In this document: positions 48,181-59,756 of the stretch, in pieces
How positions within the stretch are numbered: the stretch's first letter is position 1
How the letters are laid out: each line of letters opens with the position of its first letter
Source of the DNA: Allacma fusca
Taxonomy: Eukaryota > Arthropoda > Collembola > Symphypleona > Sminthuridae
Length of the DNA stretch: 64,000 nucleotides
Direction: 5' to 3'
Assembly: GCA_947179485.1 (NCBI GenBank)
Contig: OX359249.1
Location: forward strand, 53,579,402 to 53,643,401
Notes under the pieces: model-generated
What the model was told of the DNA's origin: nothing
The model's database searches: none
What the model saw: the letters and a program-made list of their open reading frames with translations, nothing else
Position numbers and translations under genes: made by a program

Positions 48181-48515
48181 GCTTTTCTCATCTTCGAGAG
48201 CTCGTGCAAGTTTTCAGGTCGTGAGTAGGTAGATGGTGGAGCTTTCATCAAAAGCAACGGGCCAATTTACGATAGATGACTTACTCACCAAAGTTGTATT
48301 CAATATAACTTAGCAAGGTATTCAGATCCAATCACTAGATTCGATTGCGTGAAACCAAACAACGCTTTTGACAACCACACTAATATACTGCTTGTAAGAT
48401 CAATTTTTCAGAAAGGGGCAAATGTGAAATTTGCAGCTAGTAAATAGGATAGTAGTCCTTGTGGCAACAAGCAAAAGTGGCAGTAGTCCCTGCAGCATTC
48501 TGAATTTGGCAGTAG

Positions 48516-48947
48516 TGAGACGGGTTGTTTTGGTGCACTATGGTGTATGTTCGTATATGATAATGTTACCTAAGTACAATATCGTAAGTGTTCGCTTAGC
48601 GGTTAATGGCACCAAGGAGTTGCCTCACAAACTCCGGATTATGATTATATGAGGGGACTGTCAATCCGACACGGGTATTCTAGTTTGGTGAAGGGTAAAT
48701 GATACTTCGTATAATGAGTGTAATGAGTCGAGGGATATGGGATACTTTGTACTTATCAATGTACTTAAGAATCGTACTTTTATTCTGAGTATCACTTGTT
48801 CTCTCTTCAAGCTCTCTACCTCGACTCCTGAGTTCTGGAGTCTCTCTTGACATTCTCTCATGACATTATTCATACATTTCCTTAGTGTATATTATCTTTA
48901 GGTAAATAAGGTTCAGGAGACGTTCACATGAATCTTACAATGTGACA
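48516..48947 (-). repeat. Gypsy 3' LTR
   Basis: 432 bp, TG...CA ends. On the minus strand it begins TGTCACATTG and ends CCCGTCTCA. No difference from the other LTR was seen. Confidence 0.93.
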
Positions 48948-48962
48948 CGCCCCTTCCCTGAG
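48948..48962 (-). other. polypurine tract
   Basis: The minus strand reads CAGGGAAGGGGCG directly before the 3' LTR, the position of the plus-strand primer. Confidence 0.75.
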
Positions 48963-49242
48963 AAAATAACGACCTCGTTATTCATTTCTAATTAAAAAAA
49001 AAATTTGATAACATTTTCGAGAAAAAAAAATTACTTTTGATTTCATATAATTACATTGGGGTTCAAAAAAAATAATTAACTCTTTCTAATACAATAATAA
49101 TTAAAGTTTCACTTAAATTATTACATTAATTCATTTAACTTATTACATCAATTTAATTCCTTATTAATTCAATCTAATTAATACCATTATTTCATTTAGT
49201 ACGATTCCTTTTCTCTTTTACATCAAATTTACATACATTCAT

Positions 49243-50136
49243 TCAATAATGTTCGAACATTTCACGTATTGGACACTTCATATAAATGTGTCCTGGCATC
49301 AAACATGCTTTACAAAGATCTCCAAAATTCATGCAATGAAACATGATATGTCCGGTCTTCCGGCAATGTGAACACAACCTTGCTATAATTGTAACCTCTG
49401 CTGGGTTCATTTGAAGAATCCTAGGATAGTCCAATGGATATGGAGTTGGCTTCATCTCAGGAAGGTATGTTTCCTTATGGTTCCAAGCCTTGACCTCGAA
49501 CATTTTGATCCAGATTCTGGTCTGAGCTTCATAAAGCTGTCTTGGAGTACCTTGAAGATGAATCAACCTCTCTCTTCTGTCCACTTGCCATAAGTCGATA
49601 TCAAAGCTGAAACAGTCTCCTTGAATGACATCTTTGATTGCTCCTCTGCTTCCTAGTAACGCTCCACAGATTTCTCTCGGGACCAGGATCGAAGTGTTGT
49701 AAAATGTTGATCCTCCATCTTTGACTGGTAAATCGTGGTATATGGTGTCCTTTGGGAACCTCAGCATCGGAAAGTCCTTATTCTTCGTTTGCATATGTAG
49801 CTTCATGTGAACTGTGAGTGCTTCAAGATACGGAAGTTTCACCTTGCAATGTTCACATATACATTGTTCGCTCGGAGTGTGAATGCTGAGGACCATTTCA
49901 GTGGGATCTACTATCTCCTCATCTGAAACGGCCCCAGATTCGGTCTTCACAATAGTCTTGATCTTGATGTCTTGATTGATGGCCTTGGGGAAGAAATATT
50001 GTCTGTATGCTTGACAACAGTGGATAGCTCTGTCTAGCTGTATAAGAGATTCTTCACCCCTTTCGAATTCATTCGTGATGGCTGATAACGCTGCGAGCGT
50101 TTCTGACCTGACAATTTCTTTCAATGGGTTTGACAT
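49243..50136 (-). CDS. Gypsy accessory protein: C2H2 finger, KH-like domain and two CCHC knuckles
   Basis: 297 codons from ATG 50136. Residues 94-114 form a classical C2H2 finger (C94, C97, H110, H114). Residues about 146-212 look like a KH RNA-binding domain, with ILVPREICGALLGSRGAIK containing the GxxG loop (G162-SR-G165) and a following G-x-x-x-Q-x-x-x-A helix. C255-C258-H263-C268 and C275-C278-H283-C288 are two CCHC knuckles. A KH domain followed by two knuckles recalls splicing factor SF1/BBP. It occupies the position of env but has no signal peptide or membrane segment. A TTATAG|ACAATG acceptor four bases upstream of the ATG suggests a spliced subgenomic mRNA. Likely RNA-binding; actual role unknown. 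Confidence 0.75.
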   Translation of the reverse strand: MSNPLKEIVRSETLAALSAITNEFERGEESLIQLDRAIHCCQAYRQYFFPKAINQDIKIKTIVKTESGAVSDEEIVDPTEMVLSIHTPSEQCICEHCKVKLPYLEALTVHMKLHMQTKNKDFPMLRFPKDTIYHDLPVKDGGSTFYNTSILVPREICGALLGSRGAIKDVIQGDCFSFDIDLWQVDRRERLIHLQGTPRQLYEAQTRIWIKMFEVKAWNHKETYLPEMKPTPYPLDYPRILQMNPAEVTIIARLCSHCRKTGHIMFHCMNFGDLCKACLMPGHIYMKCPIREMFEHY

Positions 50137-50880
50137 TGTCTATAATATACATATATTTTAAAGTCGAAAAAAAATTAAATCATGTGATTTGATTTCCAAA
50201 ATATTTTCCTTAGATTTACGATAAATGTTAAGTTAAATTGAAATATTTACAAATAAAGAATTAAAATTATTCTAAAATTCTGTATATAATTTGATTAAAA
50301 ATATGTGCGTGCTGAATACAATACCTTAGTACCAAGACCTCAGGACTTTGAGAAAAATAACCAAAATCGCTTAATGATTTCCTCCTTAGAATCTCCTTTG
50401 GATTCACTGCGGGTTCACTGTTCTGGTAAAAACACAAAAGAACATATTAATCTCAGGTAAGTACTTATTGGTAATGGTATTTCCCTTGTTTCCTGTGATT
50501 TAAAACAAATAACTGAAATTATCACAATAATACACAGCACTATAAGCACAATAATAAAATAAAAGCGTATTTTAAAATTGTAATAACTATGTACACTTTA
50601 AAACTTGCGTAAGCTTAAAAACTATTAAAATGTTGTATTTACAACTTAAAAATATACTATAAAAATAAATATTTTTGTATTTTTCCTTTAGTTAAGAGAA
50701 TAAAAAATAAGATAAATAAAATAGTATGTGTATATAAAAAAAATAGAGTTAATTGATAATATTATTAAAATCTTACTTCTAAGTTGGGATAAAATAATGA
50801 GATTTACACAACACAACTGTTAACATAAGTTAACTTCTACACTTGAACTGACTGAGGGAAGAGAAATTCCTCTCCCACTC
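50137..50880 (-). other. Gypsy internal non-coding region between accessory ORFs
   Basis: 744 bp, very AT-rich, without ORFs. Its 3' end is the candidate splice acceptor (AG at 50141-50140) for the KH ORF. It may hold a leader exon or promoter for that transcript; I see no certain donor. Confidence 0.5.
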
Positions 50881-53340
50881 TCATTCCTTATAATACTCTA
50901 ATGGCTTTTGAGCGGCTTTTCGTTTTGGACGTTGCCATACTTCCTCAGATGTAAAACGTGCTGCCTGCTGGAAGAGCATTCTCGACTCTCCGCTGGCCGA
51001 CAGACGCCTCTTTTTTACTTTGGGATTCGGTGGCGAATTTGGCAACACCGACTCAAATACCTCTTTTACAAGCTTAACGGGCTGGGCTTGATCTACATGA
51101 GTATTTGCTACTTCTACATTTGTACTACACTCTGTACTGACAGGTATACTTAAAATTCTTTTTCTACGATTTACATTCCTTAAATTAGTTCCTTCACTAG
51201 TGTTATCACTTCTAGGCTTATCATTACTTAAAGTTTCTAAAGTGTGTATATTTACCTTAGCCTTATTTTTGGCTTTTTGTACTTCAGGATTTAAATTAAT
51301 TTTTACCTTTCTAGGTATTCCTTTGAATAAATATACAGGACTAGGAATAGGTAAACTACCTTTGGTGTGAATGACTTTAGGAGTAAGTAATTTGGATTTG
51401 GCTTTGGTAATTCTGCCTGATTTAACTATCTTGGTTTTGGGAGTTTTCAACTTTTTACCTTTAGAAATATAGGATTGCGATGTTTGTGTATCTACTATAG
51501 GTATAGTGGGGTGGAAAATCTGTGTAGTTATAGGATTTGTTACAGAATCTGCAACTGTAAGGATTTGCTCCGGTATGAGCTCACCAGGTAAGTTTACACT
51601 TGTTATTTTCCTCTCCTTCCTCACTATTTTTGAAAACTTATTTTCCCATTTAGGATAATTCACTAAGATATTTAAATGTTCATATTCTTGTAAATATTCA
51701 CTTTCCAAATTATTTTCCCTAAGTGTAATGTTTTGTGTCTTTTTCTGTAGACGCTTATCATAACTGTCACTAATCAAATTCGGAAAAGCTTCAAAAATTA
51801 TGTAAGAGCGATGTAAATTGTACATTGGTTTGGGATCGATAGGTAAGTTATTCACTTCCATAGGTATATTGTCTACATTTTCGGGTTCAGTACTATTCTC
51901 GAATAAATTACTAATTTCTTGTTCTAAGTAATTTTGATTTTCGTGTAATAGAATTTCCTCGTTCTGGTTTATATTTTCACCATTATTGTCATTACTTAGA
52001 TTTAAATCAGATAATGCTAATAATTCATTATGTTCACTTTTCGTAGAAATTGTATTCACACTTTCGTTATTACGACTGGAACAAATTGTAGAAATTAATG
52101 ATAACCTTGATGTATGGCTATTATTAAAATATTCATTCATAGCATTTGTAATTGAAGATTCACCTATGTCTATATCTTCCTCTAGATCGAATTTCGCAGA
52201 ATCTGGATTCCGCGTGGAAACTATATCACTAATAATTGAAGAGTTCACACTATCCTCTGATGAGTCCTCTGAGGAAACTTGTGCTCTTTGTCTGTAATTA
52301 TTGAAGAATTCTGTTGCAGGTATGAATTGTTCTTCTTCTCTAATTTGTGGAGTAATTATTTGAAAATTTCCAAACATATCAAATTGCGCAAATGAGTTTT
52401 CAGTCTGTTCTGCTGCTGTTGAGCTTTGAACTGTTTCAATCCCTTCGCTTCTTTCATCGATTTCCTCAAATGAGATTAAATCTTCTGCTATCTCTTCCTC
52501 ATTCATTTCTTCTGATCTTGTAATTATTTCTGACTCTTCTTCTACTTCTTCTATGACAATTCTTTCTGTAGATGATGCATTATTCTCTAAATTATCTGGT
52601 TCCCTGAGTTCATTGTTCTCAGGAATTATATGATTGTTGATTACTGTTTGTGAATTTGAAGTGCAATTGAATTCAATGTTCACGGGTTCATGCGACAACA
52701 TATTTCCATTTAAGTTTCGATTTCTATTTTCATCGTTACTAAAGTTATTATGTATAAACTCGTCGTTAGAATTAATATTAAATTCATTTAGAATTTGTGA
52801 GTTAGGATTTATATTGATGTTAAAGTTCAGTACCGGTTGTTGAACACTAACACCATTATCTTGATCTGATGCAAATAATTGAGAAGGTGCAATTTCATTT
52901 ACATTAATTCTTCTCTTTGCTCTTGTTGTAGGTGGCAAACTTACTAAGTCTCTCACAGGACCATGGCTGCGAGTATTTCTGTAAGGACCTGAATTTTCCC
53001 TAAGTTCAATGACACTTTCATCTTGGTTTACATTTTCATTCACTGTCCTGGAACAACAAGGATCTGCAGTTTCCCTGAAATTCCCAAGTGCGTTGACGTT
53101 GCTTCTGGGTGTAACCAATCTTGCTGTCGATTCATATGTAGATATACTGGTGTTGATTCTACTTTGCCTCTGGTTTTGACTTGCTGTATGTGTGCTTGTG
53201 CTGGCGCTAACATTAGTCGAATAATAGCTAGTAGAGTTCCTATCTGCGTAATTTACATTCCTCGAAACGTCTCCCGTAGAAACTAAATTATTTGCATTGT
53301 TTTCCCTTCTAGATGCTGATGAGTTCGAATTACGGTTCAT
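50881..53340 (-). CDS. Gypsy third ORF: acidic Asn/Ser-rich protein of 819 residues
   Basis: Starts ATG 53340, only 31 bp after the pol stop and in the same frame as pol. The N-terminal third is Ser/Asn/Thr-rich. Residues about 260-300 are strongly acidic (EEVEEESEII, EEMNEEEIAED). The C-terminal third is basic, with PKVKKRRLSASG, a possible nuclear localisation signal, and ends RPKRKAAQKPLEYYKE, the sort of tail found at the C-terminus of some retroelement integrases. I recognise no folded domain, signal peptide or transmembrane helix, so it is not an obvious envelope. It may be made as a readthrough extension of pol or from its own mRNA. Confidence 0.75.
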   Translation of the reverse strand: MNRNSNSSASRRENNANNLVSTGDVSRNVNYADRNSTSYYSTNVSASTSTHTASQNQRQSRINTSISTYESTARLVTPRSNVNALGNFRETADPCCSRTVNENVNQDESVIELRENSGPYRNTRSHGPVRDLVSLPPTTRAKRRINVNEIAPSQLFASDQDNGVSVQQPVLNFNININPNSQILNEFNINSNDEFIHNNFSNDENRNRNLNGNMLSHEPVNIEFNCTSNSQTVINNHIIPENNELREPDNLENNASSTERIVIEEVEEESEIITRSEEMNEEEIAEDLISFEEIDERSEGIETVQSSTAAEQTENSFAQFDMFGNFQIITPQIREEEQFIPATEFFNNYRQRAQVSSEDSSEDSVNSSIISDIVSTRNPDSAKFDLEEDIDIGESSITNAMNEYFNNSHTSRLSLISTICSSRNNESVNTISTKSEHNELLALSDLNLSNDNNGENINQNEEILLHENQNYLEQEISNLFENSTEPENVDNIPMEVNNLPIDPKPMYNLHRSYIIFEAFPNLISDSYDKRLQKKTQNITLRENNLESEYLQEYEHLNILVNYPKWENKFSKIVRKERKITSVNLPGELIPEQILTVADSVTNPITTQIFHPTIPIVDTQTSQSYISKGKKLKTPKTKIVKSGRITKAKSKLLTPKVIHTKGSLPIPSPVYLFKGIPRKVKINLNPEVQKAKNKAKVNIHTLETLSNDKPRSDNTSEGTNLRNVNRRKRILSIPVSTECSTNVEVANTHVDQAQPVKLVKEVFESVLPNSPPNPKVKKRRLSASGESRMLFQQAARFTSEEVWQRPKRKAAQKPLEYYKE

Positions 53341-53370: not shown

Positions 53371-53373
53371 CTA
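53371..53373 (-). promoter_or_regulatory. in-frame UAG between pol and ORF3 (possible readthrough site)
   Basis: TCC TAG CAA GAT: a single amber codon separates pol from the 819-codon ORF in the same frame, with ten sense codons before the first ATG. UAG followed by CAA resembles known leaky contexts. Readthrough is inferred, not shown. Confidence 0.45.
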
Positions 53374-56268
53374 GGATTCTTCACTTGCTGTTGTACTGGA
53401 ACTATTTGTTGCTTCTCTCTGCTGGTTATTAGCTACCTCACGCTGTGGATATGTCCGATGATCATACCGAGGAAAAACCTCTGCAGGTCTCATTTGTGTG
53501 CCTAATGATGGGCTCATGCTAAAATGATCTGCGTTAAAAATTCCTCCAGGTATAACTAATGGATAATCTGCACACCAAGTATCCGGACGTATGTACGGAG
53601 CTATGTTATGCACATGTACATTCCTAAGTCTATTTCCCATTGTCGTTAAAATTGGCTTCACTTGGAAAGACTGATTTGAATAAACCTTGACGATTTCATA
53701 GGGTCCTAACCATTTCGGACCTAATTGATGGGGTTGCTGGTCTTTGAGTTTTACCAGGTCACCTACTCTGTAAGTGTGAACCTTTTTATTTGCATTAAAT
53801 AAATTATCTCGTTTTTCTTGGGCTTGTGTTGTCATTTTCACAGCTTCTTCTGTGGCTTTCGCAACTGCCTCTGCATTTTCCTCAGGTGACTGGTTAGCAT
53901 CTGATACGAGGACTGGGGTGACTAGATCCAATCTAGTAAGCGGTTCTCTGCCGTGGAATAAGAAGTATGGGGAATAGTTGGTTCCTTCATTTACATGGAA
54001 GTTGTGGGAACGGATGGCTAAAGGTAACAGAGTATCCCATTTTGCATAATCTTTCTCGATGAACTTTTTAATGAAAGTCTTTGTGGTTTTGTTCTGTCTT
54101 TCAACTATGCCCATGCTTTGCGGGCTGTTAGGCATTACAATAATATGTTTAATTCCTTTAGTAGCTAACCACTGTGGAAATTCACCGTGTGCAAAATGTG
54201 GACCTCCGTCCGTCACTATCTCCCTAGGAAAATGATGCTCATTTATGACAATGTTCTCAAGTAACCTTTGTGAGTCTTTAGATGTGTGAGTCTTTGAAGT
54301 ACCAGCAAAAACATATCTGGTTGTACAGTCAATCATTACTAATGCGTATTGGTGTCCTTTCTCTGACCGTGGCAATGGACCTATCCAATCCAAAGCTAAT
54401 CTATATAAGGCTTTTGCAGGTGGTGGCAATGACTTTCTGTGACCTATTAAAGCTGTATTCCTAGGATTGTGAAGTTGACACACTTCACAGGACTGAAGAA
54501 ACTTCTGAACATCTTGGAACATGTTTACCCAGAAATACCTTGTATATAATGCAGAGAAGGTTTTGTAAATTCCTGCATGTCCTCCTTCAGGATCTGTGTG
54601 GAAAATTCTAATGATTTCAGCTCTCAATGCTTTCGGTATGCAAAGTCTCCAAGGGTTTGCTGTAAGTCCTTTATCAATTCTATATAAGAGTCCATGAATT
54701 AATGCATAGTTATCTCCAAAGATATGCGGTGGGTCACTCTCATGATCACCTTTCTTTATGAGTTTCAGAATGATGTCAGCTAACTTCTCGTCTTCAGCTT
54801 GTTTTTCCCTGAATAAATCTCCGTTACCTCCTACGGTGACTTGAATAGCTCTGTCTTCCTGAGCGACTTCCACTTGAGTTGCATCAACTAGGGTCGTATT
54901 CAAGCGGCGAATAACCTCTCGGGAAAGGCAATCTACATGTGCCATCTTTTTCCCTGGGACATGTTCGATGGTCATGGGCTGTTTCGCAAGCATCATGGTC
55001 CATCTGGCTATCCTGTTATGTGGGTCTTTCATGGTCATTACATGCTGAAGGCTATGGTGATCTGTTCTGATGTGAACCATTTTACCATAAACATATTGCC
55101 TGAACTTTTGTAATCCCCAGACAATGGCAAGGCATTCCCTCTCTCTAGCGTCCCATTTTCTCTCGGTTTCAGTGAGTGATCGAGATGCATAATGAATTGG
55201 ATGCAAATTTTTCCCATCTGTACCTTGGTGTAGGATTGCCCCAATTCCATAGGCGCTGGCGTCTGTGTAAAGATAGAGATCTGCTAAAGGGTTATAAAAT
55301 TGTAATACAGGTGCTGTCATTAATGCTGATTTCAATTTCCTAGCTGCTTCATCACATTCCGGAGTCCAATCGAATTTGGCTCCAACTCTCTTGAGTTCAT
55401 TCAATGGCTTTGCGATGTTGGCATACCCTTCTATGAACTGCCGATACCATTCTGTCATTCCCAAGAAACTTCTGAGGGATTTAATTCCTGTGGAAGGATC
55501 CATGTTCATGATTGGTTCCATCTTGGTATCGATGGGTTGTTTCCCATCTCCGCTGATTAATAATCCTAAGAAATCTATTTGCTGAAAACCAAATTTGCAT
55601 TTCTTCAGCTTGAACATCAAGCCAAAAATTTGAGCTCTTTGTAGGACTTGCTCGAATCTGATTAACAGGTCTTCAAATGTACTTGCAAAAATTAACACAT
55701 CATCTATGTATACCAGTACTATTGTATACCTAAGTGCTCCGAGGATGTCATCCATCATTTGCTGGAATTCCCCCGGTGAGTTTCTGTAACCGAAGGGTAG
55801 ACGGTTCATACAGAACTTCCCGTCTGGTGTTGTAAAGGCCATTTTTAGCCTGGACTTGGCATCCAACATTCTCTGTAGAAATCCCTGAATCGCATCAAGT
55901 GATATAAACCACTTGGCTCCATGTAATCTATCGAACTGATCTTGAGGGATAGGTAAAGGATATGTGTTCTTGACTACATTCTTGTTGAATCTCCTAAGGT
56001 CTAAAACGTACCTAAAAGTTCCATCAGCTTTCTTTACTAAGAGTACTGGATTGTTCCATGGTGAGTCGCATGGGGAAACTATACCCTGATCAATGTGTTG
56101 ATTTACTAATTTCCTAAGTTCTTCTTGTTCAGTAAAAGAAAGTCTGTATTGAGGAGTATATACTGGTTTGGCATCTCCAGTATCAATGGTGACATATTTA
56201 TAGTTGACGCATCCGAATTCGGAGTCATCTTTGGCAAAACAATTTCTGTATTTATTAATGATTCCCAT
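53371..56268 (-). CDS. pol: Gypsy pol: reverse transcriptase, RNase H and integrase
   Basis: 965 codons from ATG 56268, although the frame is open from just after the UGA at 56311. RT (about residues 45-225) has SLDAIQGFLQ and the catalytic VYIDDVLIF. RNase H (about 330-450) has YLYTDASAYGIGAILHQ, ERECLAIVWGLQKFR and IRTDHHSLQHV. Integrase has a zinc site (HTDPEGGHAG...CEVC, about 556-598), the catalytic Asp in ALDWIGPLP, the second Asp in VTDGG and the Glu in GIVERQNKT, then a GPY/F module (GPKWLGPYEIVKV, about 850). All catalytic residues are present, with no frameshift or internal stop. It copies the RNA into cDNA and inserts it into the genome. Confidence 0.93.
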   Translation of the reverse strand: MGIINKYRNCFAKDDSEFGCVNYKYVTIDTGDAKPVYTPQYRLSFTEQEELRKLVNQHIDQGIVSPCDSPWNNPVLLVKKADGTFRYVLDLRRFNKNVVKNTYPLPIPQDQFDRLHGAKWFISLDAIQGFLQRMLDAKSRLKMAFTTPDGKFCMNRLPFGYRNSPGEFQQMMDDILGALRYTIVLVYIDDVLIFASTFEDLLIRFEQVLQRAQIFGLMFKLKKCKFGFQQIDFLGLLISGDGKQPIDTKMEPIMNMDPSTGIKSLRSFLGMTEWYRQFIEGYANIAKPLNELKRVGAKFDWTPECDEAARKLKSALMTAPVLQFYNPLADLYLYTDASAYGIGAILHQGTDGKNLHPIHYASRSLTETERKWDARERECLAIVWGLQKFRQYVYGKMVHIRTDHHSLQHVMTMKDPHNRIARWTMMLAKQPMTIEHVPGKKMAHVDCLSREVIRRLNTTLVDATQVEVAQEDRAIQVTVGGNGDLFREKQAEDEKLADIILKLIKKGDHESDPPHIFGDNYALIHGLLYRIDKGLTANPWRLCIPKALRAEIIRIFHTDPEGGHAGIYKTFSALYTRYFWVNMFQDVQKFLQSCEVCQLHNPRNTALIGHRKSLPPPAKALYRLALDWIGPLPRSEKGHQYALVMIDCTTRYVFAGTSKTHTSKDSQRLLENIVINEHHFPREIVTDGGPHFAHGEFPQWLATKGIKHIIVMPNSPQSMGIVERQNKTTKTFIKKFIEKDYAKWDTLLPLAIRSHNFHVNEGTNYSPYFLFHGREPLTRLDLVTPVLVSDANQSPEENAEAVAKATEEAVKMTTQAQEKRDNLFNANKKVHTYRVGDLVKLKDQQPHQLGPKWLGPYEIVKVYSNQSFQVKPILTTMGNRLRNVHVHNIAPYIRPDTWCADYPLVIPGGIFNADHFSMSPSLGTQMRPAEVFPRYDHRTYPQREVANNQQREATNSSSTTASEES

Positions 56269-56310
56269 AAGTTGTTGTTGTTGAGATCCATTTATTGTTG
56301 GACCAAACTT

Positions 56311-56313
56311 TCA
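56311..56313 (-). promoter_or_regulatory. in-frame UGA between protease and RT
   Basis: GAA TGA AAG: one opal codon divides a single continuous frame. The codons after it (KFGPTINGSQQQQL) lead directly into the RT N-terminus. Either stop-codon readthrough or a single inactivating mutation. Confidence 0.5.
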
Positions 56314-57411
56314 TTCTGTAGGTAAAAGCGGTTTAAGGGTTTTGATGTTTTCCCTAGCTGCAGCAATTTCTTCTTTTTCGCAATTAATCTCTACTCCATT
56401 AAAATGGTCGAAATTTGCAAATCGTCTGAGTGGTTGTAGTACTGTAGAATGTCTTGATGGGTTCCATACTAAGGTGTATGACTTGCCATTTTCCATGGGA
56501 CATATGATGTCTCCAAAGAATAAGTCACGACGATGCTTTCTGATGGGGGAAATCAAGACGTTTCCCGTGTAATTGTCATCAGCTGAAAGATCCACTCTTG
56601 TCCATGAACGTGGTGGCATCTCATAAGGTCGGGTTGATCTCACGCACAAACTTCTCCTTACCCTCGGTAACTCTCCTGAATACTCAGAAGAAAGGCACAA
56701 AGACCTCAAATCGGTAACCGTGCCCTCAACAATCCTTTCTTCGTTTAATGTCACCGAGTTGGGGTTGAGTTTAATGTTTGCATGATGTTTATGTAGAAAA
56801 TCCCTCCCTAAGAGTATAACTGAGTTAGACTTGGGAATTACTGCGAAATTATGCGAATTTAATTGGTTCTTGACGTGGTAATGTACTTTTGCTGTCTTAT
56901 TGTACACGATTGTGGAATCTGTAAGTAGTTGTTGAATTGCTTTGGGATTGTGAAGATGTACTTTAATTGCTTCAGGGTTGCTTAGCCTAATAGCGTGGAC
57001 ACAGGATGGGGAAATTGTAGAAATTCCTCCTCCTTGGTCTATGATGGCTGGGATGAATAATTTGTTGTTGCCATAAATTCTCAAATTATGTATTAATTCG
57101 GTAGAATTATCTTGCGTTTCCAAAATTTGTTCAAAATCTTCCCTAAGCTCTGATGAAGTATCTGACAAAGGGATTTGATCTGAAGAAATATCTGATATAT
57201 CTGATGCATGTGATCTAGGGATGCATTTCTTCATTTTAGGAATGGGTTCTTTGTTGTATTGAGAATCTTGTATTTTGCTAAGTAGCTGTGTAGTGTTGTT
57301 ATGTGTTGGTTGTGTAATATTAGGTTTAGGGTGTGTAAGGGGTAAATTAAAACTATGACTATTTACAGGTAATTGCTGAGTCAGTTCCTCCCGTTGAAAC
57401 CGACTTAACAA
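56311..57411 (-). CDS. pro: Gypsy aspartic protease region
   Basis: Open from the frameshift site to a TGA at 56313-56311. There is no good ATG, so it must be made as a Gag-Pro fusion. The active-site loop reads AIIDQGGGIS (about residues 122-131) and the flap-distal strand VILLGRDFLHKH (about 198-209), the I-L-G-x-D-F-L motif. The usual DTG/DSG is DQG here. About 120 residues of Ser/Pro/Thr-rich linker precede the domain, and about 150 residues follow before RT. It cleaves the polyprotein during maturation if active. Confidence 0.82.
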   Translation of the reverse strand: MLSRFQREELTQQLPVNSHSFNLPLTHPKPNITQPTHNNTTQLLSKIQDSQYNKEPIPKMKKCIPRSHASDISDISSDQIPLSDTSSELREDFEQILETQDNSTELIHNLRIYGNNKLFIPAIIDQGGGISTISPSCVHAIRLSNPEAIKVHLHNPKAIQQLLTDSTIVYNKTAKVHYHVKNQLNSHNFAVIPKSNSVILLGRDFLHKHHANIKLNPNSVTLNEERIVEGTVTDLRSLCLSSEYSGELPRVRRSLCVRSTRPYEMPPRSWTRVDLSADDNYTGNVLISPIRKHRRDLFFGDIICPMENGKSYTLVWNPSRHSTVLQPLRRFANFDHFNGVEINCEKEEIAAARENIKTLKPLLPTE

Positions 57412-57417
57412 TTTAAA
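57379..57417 (-). promoter_or_regulatory. -1 programmed ribosomal frameshift signal, gag to protease
   Basis: The slippery heptamer T TTA AAT (57417-57411) is in the gag frame, two codons before the gag stop. A 5-nt spacer TGTTA follows (57410-57406). Then comes an 8-bp stem AGTCGGTT/AACTGACT (57405-57398 with 57386-57379, one G-U), closed by an 11-nt loop. A shift of -1 enters the protease frame exactly. Confidence 0.85.
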
Positions 57418-58904
57418 GAATGATTGTTTGCAGTTTCCTGAGAAGTCTGCTGTTGTTGGCTGGTATTACCAACAAGACGTAATACTGATGTTAAAATTTG
57501 TCTATCGTTACTCTCATTTTGACGACTATTGTTGCCGTATTGGTGACTAGCGTTGTTATTTGAATAACCATTGGCATTATTGCTGTTGTTAAAATGACCT
57601 CTAAAATTTCCTCTAGAATTTCCTCTCCCTCGAGAAAATCCTCTGTTTTGTTGTCCGTGATAGTTGCTGTTGAAATAAGTGCGGCTATTGCTATCTTGTT
57701 GTTGTGCATTACGGCTATTGTTGAATGAGCCTCTGCCTTGGAAACCTCTTCCGCGGCCTCTAAAATTCGAGTTTCCTCTATTGTTGTTAGATGTATATCT
57801 GTGATGGCAAGCTGTTGCAGTATGCCCTGGTTTTGAACAAATCTGACATGTCTCCTTGAAACTTCTAACTTTTTCAGCTTCAGCTGAGTCCTTATCCTTA
57901 CTCTTCTTTTCGGATTTAATTTCTTCCTTAGGTAAGGCTGGATTGGGGAAAGATGAGACAATGGGTTTTGCTGTAGATTTTGTCATAAGCTTTCTTTCTC
58001 CTGCTACGACGCTTTCTAATCTTGCAGAAAAGGCTGATAAATTTGCCCTCTCGGGTTCTTGGATGAAACGGTTTAGTTCGTATGGGATTTTGCGAAACAT
58101 TCTGCCTACCTTAGCTTTCTCACTAAGGGTGCCATCTACTTGAGACAGGATCTCCAATGATTTAATGATGAATTCGCTAACTGGCTTTTCAATGTCGAAC
58201 TTGAATTCTTCCCATTTTGTCTGTGCTAATTCTGATCTATGCTCGTTCTTGAAGTGTAGTTCGAATTGCCCCATGAACTTACTCATAATCTTATTAGCTG
58301 AGAAACCTCTATTTCGCCATTCCGTAACGATATGTTCCATACCTTCATACCATGAAATGACTAATAGGGATTTAGATGATTTGAAGAATACGTTAAGCAT
58401 TGAGACTAGGAAAGCAGTGTCTATTTGCAAGTTGAAGCATTCGAAAGCAAAATTTCTACTCCATACTGAAGCATCTATCTTAGTCTCATAAGGAAGTATA
58501 CGATCTCTTAGTACCTTTAGAAGCTTTTTATTCTTCTCCAATTCCTTAAGGTTGCTACCTTCCGGTTGACCAAATCGTCTTCCTTCATTGTCGGAATCGC
58601 TGTCATCCTTCTGGAAATCATCGTACCATTCCGACTCTCTGTGTGACCAATTTCCGTCTTCGTTCAGGTATTCTCGGTTTCTTCTGCCTGTGAATCGGGT
58701 TTTCTTCCTTCGAACTGGTTCCTCATCTTCTTCCTCAGTTTCGGAGAACATGATTAAGGGTTTCTTTTGTGATTTTGTTACTTTCGCTAAAAGTTCACTA
58801 AACTGTCGTGTGATTGTCTGTTCAATAGTACTTCGTAGTGTGGAAACAGATTGATCAGTTTCCTTAAAGTCACTGTTGTTACTGTTCTCACCATTAGTAG
58901 ACAT
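57405..58904 (-). CDS. gag: Gypsy Gag with zinc knuckle and RGG-rich tail
   Basis: 499 codons from ATG 58904 (context GCAACCATGT). An upstream in-frame extension has no ATG. An acidic N-terminal region (EEEDEEPVRRKKTR) precedes a helical capsid-like domain at about residues 145-305 (FAFECFNLQIDTAFL, WEEFKFDIEKPVSEF). A CCHC knuckle CQICSKPGHTATAC lies at about 353-366. The tail is RGG/FRGRG- and Asn-rich to the end. It forms the particle and packages the element RNA. The frame is intact. The last codons hold the frameshift site. Confidence 0.9.
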   Translation of the reverse strand: MSTNGENSNNSDFKETDQSVSTLRSTIEQTITRQFSELLAKVTKSQKKPLIMFSETEEEDEEPVRRKKTRFTGRRNREYLNEDGNWSHRESEWYDDFQKDDSDSDNEGRRFGQPEGSNLKELEKNKKLLKVLRDRILPYETKIDASVWSRNFAFECFNLQIDTAFLVSMLNVFFKSSKSLLVISWYEGMEHIVTEWRNRGFSANKIMSKFMGQFELHFKNEHRSELAQTKWEEFKFDIEKPVSEFIIKSLEILSQVDGTLSEKAKVGRMFRKIPYELNRFIQEPERANLSAFSARLESVVAGERKLMTKSTAKPIVSSFPNPALPKEEIKSEKKSKDKDSAEAEKVRSFKETCQICSKPGHTATACHHRYTSNNNRGNSNFRGRGRGFQGRGSFNNSRNAQQQDSNSRTYFNSNYHGQQNRGFSRGRGNSRGNFRGHFNNSNNANGYSNNNASHQYGNNSRQNESNDRQILTSVLRLVGNTSQQQQTSQETANNHSLNC

Positions 58905-59302: not shown

Positions 59303-59320
59303 AACGGCGCACTCCACCAG
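59303..59320 (-). other. primer-binding site
   Basis: One base after the 5' LTR the minus strand reads TGGTGGAGTGCGCCGTT. The TGG start is complementary to a tRNA CCA end. I could not assign the tRNA. Confidence 0.65.
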
Positions 59321-59752
59321 TGAGACGGGTTGTTTTGGTGCACTATGGTGTATGTTCGTATATGATAATGTTACCTAAGTACAATATCGTAAGTGTTCGC
59401 TTAGCGGTTAATGGCACCAAGGAGTTGCCTCACAAACTCCGGATTATGATTATATGAGGGGACTGTCAATCCGACACGGGTATTCTAGTTTGGTGAAGGG
59501 TAAATGATACTTCGTATAATGAGTGTAATGAGTCGAGGGATATGGGATACTTTGTACTTATCAATGTACTTAAGAATCGTACTTTTATTCTGAGTATCAC
59601 TTGTTCTCTCTTCAAGCTCTCTACCTCGACTCCTGAGTTCTGGAGTCTCTCTTGACATTCTCTCATGACATTATTCATACATTTCCTTAGTGTATATTAT
59701 CTTTAGGTAAATAAGGTTCAGGAGACGTTCACATGAATCTTACAATGTGACA
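59321..59752 (-). repeat. Gypsy 5' LTR
   Basis: 432 bp, TG...CA ends, seemingly identical to 48516-48947. It should contain the promoter; a TATA box is not obvious. Confidence 0.93.
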
Positions 59753-59756
59753 GTAG

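Follow-up and report, generated by a model that had tools for sequence, protein, structure and literature searches.

What kind of protein does a Ty3/Gypsy retrotransposon of the collembolan Allacma fusca encode in its env position, and what might that protein do for the element? The element lies in a 64,000-nucleotide stretch of contig OX359249.1 (assembly GCA_947179485.1, positions 53,579,402 to 53,643,401), referred to as the window throughout, and carries an intact open reading frame (ORF) for 297 amino acids between pol and the 3' long terminal repeat (LTR) (49243..50136; this and all element features below are on the minus strand). The encoded accessory protein consists of an N-terminal part, a C2H2 finger (residues 94-114, 49795..49857), one KH domain of the hnRNP K/PCBP type (Pfam limits 148-208, 49513..49695) and two nucleocapsid-like zinc knuckles, CSHCRKTGHIMFHC (residues 255-268, 49333..49374) and CKACLMPGHIYMKC (residues 275-288, 49273..49314). 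An original prediction had described this ORF with its finger, GSRG loop and knuckle pair, and its coordinates and residues were verified. Judging from the sequence, we tentatively propose, at somewhat below an even chance, that this Gypsy lineage encodes an RNA-binding regulator that would be made from a spliced mRNA and act in trans on the element's own RNA.

In an alignment of nine copies (the window copy and eight others, 36-92% identical to it), all C2H2 ligands (C94/C97/H110/H114), both glycines of the KH loop (G162-S-R-G165; GxxG at 49642-49653) and seven of the eight knuckle ligands were invariant. Only H263 of the first knuckle varied, being absent from one copy; the ligands of the second knuckle were kept in all nine. 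Because all but one of the ligands and both loop glycines are invariant across the aligned copies, the domain pattern exceeds chance. A protein database search with the accessory protein returned only three unnamed matches, all from A. fusca, and 30 pattern matches among viral contigs included no relatives.

All nine family members matched KH_1 at E<=1 (best 1.6e-4); the window copy scored 20.3 bits, just below the curated cut-off of 21.5, and family member L025 (L-numbers denote element loci elsewhere in the A. fusca genome) scored 21.8 bits, above it. Modelled alone, the KH piece gave a type I KH domain with a predicted local distance difference test (pLDDT) score of 74 and a beta-alpha-(GxxG)-alpha-beta-beta-alpha order (E8-18, H19-25, loop, H34-37, E42-51, E54-61, H63-84), and all 50 PDB matches listed in a structure search with this model were KH entries. 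Structure prediction and PDB fold matches therefore bore out the suspected KH domain, and the accessory protein is predicted to have a type I KH fold. A full-length AlphaFold model built from a four-row alignment was discarded (pLDDT 33.9). Searching a viral fold library yielded 515 matches at E<=10 and none at E<=0.001. The nearest known domains, both by profile (IGF2BP2, 8.1e-6) and by fold (hnRNP K KH3, 3.5e-4), were type I KH domains of the hnRNP K/PCBP/IGF2BP group, with PDB profile matches to IGF2BP, PCBP, hnRNP K, Nova, FUBP1, KHSRP, MEX3C and a RING-KH protein; KH identity between this group and the element protein was 17-29% in the structure search. Host proteins of this group contain multiple KH domains but neither C2H2 nor CCHC parts.

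The proposed parallel to SF1/BBP, in contrast, was not supported. SF1 and yeast BBP have a KH domain followed by zinc knuckles, and the element protein likewise has two zinc knuckles C-terminal of its KH domain, but this domain belongs to another KH subfamily and is preceded by an extra C2H2 finger. At E<=1, none of the nine element proteins matched PF22675 (KHDC4/BBP), whereas human SF1 KH-QUA2, used as a control, matched this family at 1.4e-22 as well as SF1, BBP and STAR-family structures. SF1 was absent among 35 PDB profile matches at E<=10, and BLASTP against SF1 KH-QUA2 gave a single 29-residue match (E 0.57), with no confident model for the stretch following the KH domain. The absence of SF1/STAR entries among the 50 structure matches listed, in VIA-align ordering, excludes nothing.

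Full-length copies of the KH ORF are under purifying selection. The ratio of nonsynonymous to synonymous substitution rates (dN/dS), a comparison suggested by the original prediction, was 0.08-0.24 in 10 usable pairs out of 18 computed, the other eight being unusable because their changes were too few or saturated. The KH ORFs of the window and L010, for instance, differed by 64 synonymous and 27 nonsynonymous changes (dN/dS 0.08), and pol of this pair also gave a dN/dS of 0.08; the corresponding value for the pol extension described below was dropped, since the L010 frame holds a stop. Between families the accessory protein evolves faster than pol (36-43% versus 66-79% identity to the window). 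Synonymous divergence between the window and L010 was higher in the KH ORF (0.48) than in pol (0.19), and the identity between the window and L009 across 48948-50880 was uneven (spacer 86-90%, KH 99-100%, 3' untranslated region 94%, LTR 99%), with pol nearly identical. On account of these differences the elements look mosaic, and recombination between copies probably moves the KH region.

To what extent is the gene shared among related elements? A genome search with the window protein gave 50 matches, 17 of which were near full length without a stop. Among 47 scored pol copies, taken from the closest of 3,060 pol candidates, 20 had a KH match downstream (some damaged), four had only the N-terminus (residues 1-89 or 2-89), and 23 had no KH-protein match downstream. 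This tally was drawn from 47 of the 50 KH matches (three second pieces of listed loci being omitted), 10 N-terminal rows and 47 pol rows. Of the 23 copies without a match, 16 were assessed by protein search alone and seven (L029-L035) were also checked as DNA, of which six lacked any KH match and one had a 30-residue remnant. The gene thus spans several families but is not universal. Copies lacking the ORF or showing it as relaxed, which had been named as possible counter-evidence, do occur, namely the 23 without a match and the four N-terminus-only copies, which look relaxed, while the full-length copies are constrained. Ten loci matched the N-terminal 89 residues only; nine of these gave an ORF that ends soon after, without finger, KH or knuckles, and their pooled pN/pS of 0.77, from all, non-independent, pairs of the nine copies, indicated almost neutral evolution.

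Some KH-less copies retain long uninterrupted pol frames, and in the KH-less copies read as DNA the pol extension persists, either complete or fragmented. Where relatives have the ORF region, L030 has roughly 200 nt and L029 roughly 660 nt that contain no long frame; in L031-L034 the distance from the pol extension to the polypurine tract is only some 410-520 nt. KH-bearing and KH-less rows were intermingled on a pol-extension tree (17 of 29 rows), on which the KH label clustered no more than in shuffled labels (325 of 500 shuffles were as low). Two long-branch joins carried warnings, and the at least 5 changes on this tree may be gains, losses or recombination. In one local array (G000:C5:33830700-33861074), four pol copies with identical scores lie within 31 kb; the first is L029, and none has a KH-protein match. 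Genome matches of the accessory protein do not coincide with KH_1 matches outside the element family. Twin 182-codon frames with a KH_1 match at C10:17726926 and C10:20876256 (G000) perhaps represent another repeated KH gene.

An acceptor-like UAG or CAG was found 2-8 nt upstream of the conserved KH-ORF start in 16/16 copies examined. This count, made on related copies and with no shuffled control, uses whichever AG within 60 nt was best. In the window the candidate AG adjoining the start is that of TATAG, followed by ACA ATG (50140..50141); another candidate, the AG of TTTTTACCAG followed by AACAG (50423..50424), is kept in four aligned copies. The acceptor-like site directly upstream of the conserved start in all 16 copies suggests that the accessory protein is made from a spliced message. 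Separately, TTCGAWTTCGAA occurs with 0-1 mismatches immediately ahead of the accessory start, or of the acceptor-like site, in four relatives of the window subfamily, two other families and two KH-less copies (for example at L009 7161, L019 6866 and L029 3070); it was not found in the window or in two families and was not used as evidence.

If the element splices its RNA, it also has to bring its unspliced genome out of the nucleus. In the mechanism that we propose, the accessory protein would be translated from a spliced subgenomic mRNA with its 3' splice site 2-8 nt ahead of the start codon, and its KH domain and knuckles would bind the element's own unspliced RNA. Binding would spare this RNA from being spliced or retained in the nucleus and would let Gag-Pol RNA reach the cytoplasm. 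Since gene-less copies have spread, the protein would either act in trans, with copies lacking the gene using that of others, or these copies would be independent of it, having also lost the intron signals and hence any need for such a protein.

A precedent is CERV of the Caenorhabditis elegans Gypsy element Cer1. According to the accessible text of PMC10309623, CERV is made from a spliced mRNA including the env-position ORF and is required, with its cysteine loop, for nuclear export of unspliced Cer1 genomic RNA; it comprises a helix-hairpin, a ring-forming M and a G-protein-like G domain, in which the database used by the authors recognised no RNA-binding motif. As far as that text goes, both proteins are element-encoded between pol and the 3' LTR, not Env-like, partly cysteine-rich and lineage-specific, and the spliced mRNA reported for CERV would have its counterpart in the one predicted for A. 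fusca (PMC10309623). By analogy, a nucleic-acid-binding protein in the env position is a good candidate for doing CERV's job by means of a different structure.

Several points weigh against this proposal, beginning with the make-up of the acceptor count given above. The window copy has a weak acceptor (top 9%). No 5' splice site was identified; a candidate at 58891, beside the gag start, ranks fourth by score and would leave the KH start out of frame. L029 and L030, both KH-less, retain a TTTCAG acceptor-like site, which weakens the simple view that the gene was lost along with the intron. Between the window and L009 the KH ORF shows three nonsynonymous and no synonymous changes, too few to weigh, and that many copies do without the gene would also be compatible with a minor role. 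Finally, CERV was compared by its published domain description only, and no KH domain or CCHC pair is described in the accessible text of PMC10309623.

Among other explanations, we regard as unlikely that the protein is an auxiliary nucleocapsid or packaging protein, whose KH domain and double knuckle would coat or chaperone genomic RNA in particles and supplement the Gag knuckle. Gag has just one knuckle (CQICSKPGHTATAC, read from the sequence, as originally noted), the accessory knuckle pair with its six-residue linker resembles a retroviral nucleocapsid, and the PDB chains matched over the knuckles were Gag or nucleocapsid (2ec7, 2bl6, 6t61, 2l4l), none significantly (E 0.22-9.9). However, the KH domain is of a type found in host mRNA regulators, and gene-less copies have multiplied, so that packaging needs no such gene in cis. 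Less probable still is a role in counter-defence, in which the protein would dampen host silencing by binding small RNAs derived from the element, or the precursors of such RNAs. Arms-race genes are often dispensable, fast-evolving and patchily present, and the accessory gene is dispensable, evolves faster than pol between families and is absent from scattered branches; yet the dN/dS values of the usable pairs give no sign of positive selection, and no silencing-suppressor fold was found in a search limited to the KH part, the sole part modelled.

It appears improbable that the ORF is a KH gene captured from the host, a mere passenger without a role for the element. KH and C2H2 are host-type domains, and rotifer LTR elements have captured foreign ORF3s, as far as described in the accessible text of PMC5408684. 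Speaking against a passenger are the purifying selection, ligands that stay fixed between families with differences at >60% of residues, the lack of overlap between the genome matches and non-element KH_1 loci, and the restriction of database matches to three unnamed A. fusca proteins. A derivative of SF1/BBP that controls splicing via branch-point recognition is very improbable, since the KH-then-two-knuckles order of yeast BBP is all that speaks for it and the PF22675, PDB profile and BLASTP results given above speak against it.

Returning to the proposed regulator of the element's own RNA, its C2H2 segment also closes a 416-codon ORF located downstream of the pol of a more remote Gypsy family (pol 42% identical over residues 166-928); this ORF has a BTB match just below cut-off and one CCHC motif, read by eye. 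Profile comparison of the two C2H2 modules covered 36 columns with a probability of 96% (E 3.4e-9). Being common to the KH protein and the more distant family, the C2H2 module probably predates the present form of the KH protein, and the accessory proteins of A. fusca Gypsy elements look modular. A two-ORF accessory system was observed at L049 (G000:C1:53981900-53984400), L051 and L056, in which an ORF with CCHC, BTB-like and C2H2 parts is followed by a second ORF with a KH-like-looking tail and a Cys/His motif. We do not claim a KH domain in this tail, as L056 ORF-B gave no Pfam hit, an hhalign probability of 0.4% and one irrelevant PDB match (first 325-residue piece). A broader scenario, possible but doubtful, is that a Rev/CERV-like regulator was joined from a C2H2 finger, a PCBP-type KH domain and a knuckle pair and serves as a public good in trans: 'producer' copies would be under strong selection, 'cheater' copies with long pol frames would drop the gene, and the deeper Gypsy family would reuse the C2H2 module in its two-ORF BTB-like system.

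The insertion hosting the ORF is bounded by identical repeats (434/434 nt, blastn). Delimited by TG..CA, the two LTRs measure 432 bp each and are identical (5' LTR 59321..59752, 3' LTR 48516..48947; blastn and limit check), and GTAG target site duplications flank both sides (48512..48515 and 59753..59756). Because of the identical LTRs and the 4-bp duplication, the insertion is recent. Following the 5' LTR, a primer-binding-site-like stretch beginning TGG (TGGTGGAGTGCGCCGT, 59304..59319) is kept in the window and two sister copies; no tRNA was matched to this putative site. From 5' to 3' the element comprises gag, a protease, reverse transcriptase (RT), RNase H and integrase pol, a frame of about 820 codons, the accessory ORF, a polypurine tract (GGGAAGGGG, 48950..48958) and the 3' LTR. 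Gag (57405..58904) starts with MSTNGENSNN, contains one CCHC knuckle and has no Pfam match. The protease part (56311..57465), in a different frame from gag and closed by an in-frame stop, has a weak RVP_2 match below cut-off. Its active-site triplet is DQGG in the window, mostly DNGG or DDGA in sister families, and L017 has lost the D itself; the usual protease active site is DT/SGA.

The RT - RNase H - integrase part (53371..56310; RVT_1, RT_RNaseH, Integrase_H2C2, rve) shows the Ty3/Gypsy order (RVT_1 78-236, RNase H 301-428, integrase 544-716). Pol runs on into the fast-evolving frame of about 820 codons (50881..53340, in frame with pol) in 3/3 sister copies compared, and the frame is therefore a pol extension; a Pfam scan gave no match for it. 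It has a conserved basic end, RPKRxAxxP, and occurs in KH-bearing as well as KH-less copies. Window pol has two in-frame stops (56311-56313 and 53371-53373) that are absent from the sister copies compared: at the protease-RT junction other loci shown in frame are stop-free, with L010 having a stop elsewhere nearby, and ahead of the long frame 3/3 sister copies read through. Despite its identical LTRs, the window copy's pol is broken. No envelope family was found in the Pfam scan, and no dedicated signal-peptide or transmembrane prediction was made.

Extra ORFs in the env position are already known from rotifers, plants and Cer1, and the C2H2-KH-CCHC-CCHC set is a new variant. Orchid Ty3/Gypsy elements reportedly acquired an m6A demethylase domain; these too would be a Gypsy lineage with an RNA-directed function, but with an enzyme domain and in plants. 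Bdelloid rotifer LTR elements, in the accessible text of PMC5408684, captured non-envelope ORF3s (esterase, exonuclease or envelope-like), which resemble the present ORF in being env-position accessory ORFs that are family-specific and missing on some branches, but are not KH/zinc proteins. The lineage described in the accessible text of PMC12440569 differs, with 3-bp duplications and CG..CG ends. In agreement with the original prediction, no Gypsy element with a KH protein was found in the literature surveyed, subscription literature being outside its coverage.

Export of unspliced retroelement RNA is an old question, for which CERV was the only dedicated LTR-retrotransposon protein found in that literature. 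The A. fusca protein, whose architecture is recognisably that of an RNA-binding protein, would be a second export candidate of different structure. Within one genome, several families offer sister copies with and without the KH protein; these allow a natural comparison and bear on the question of whether transposon accessory genes are shared goods exploited by non-producer copies.
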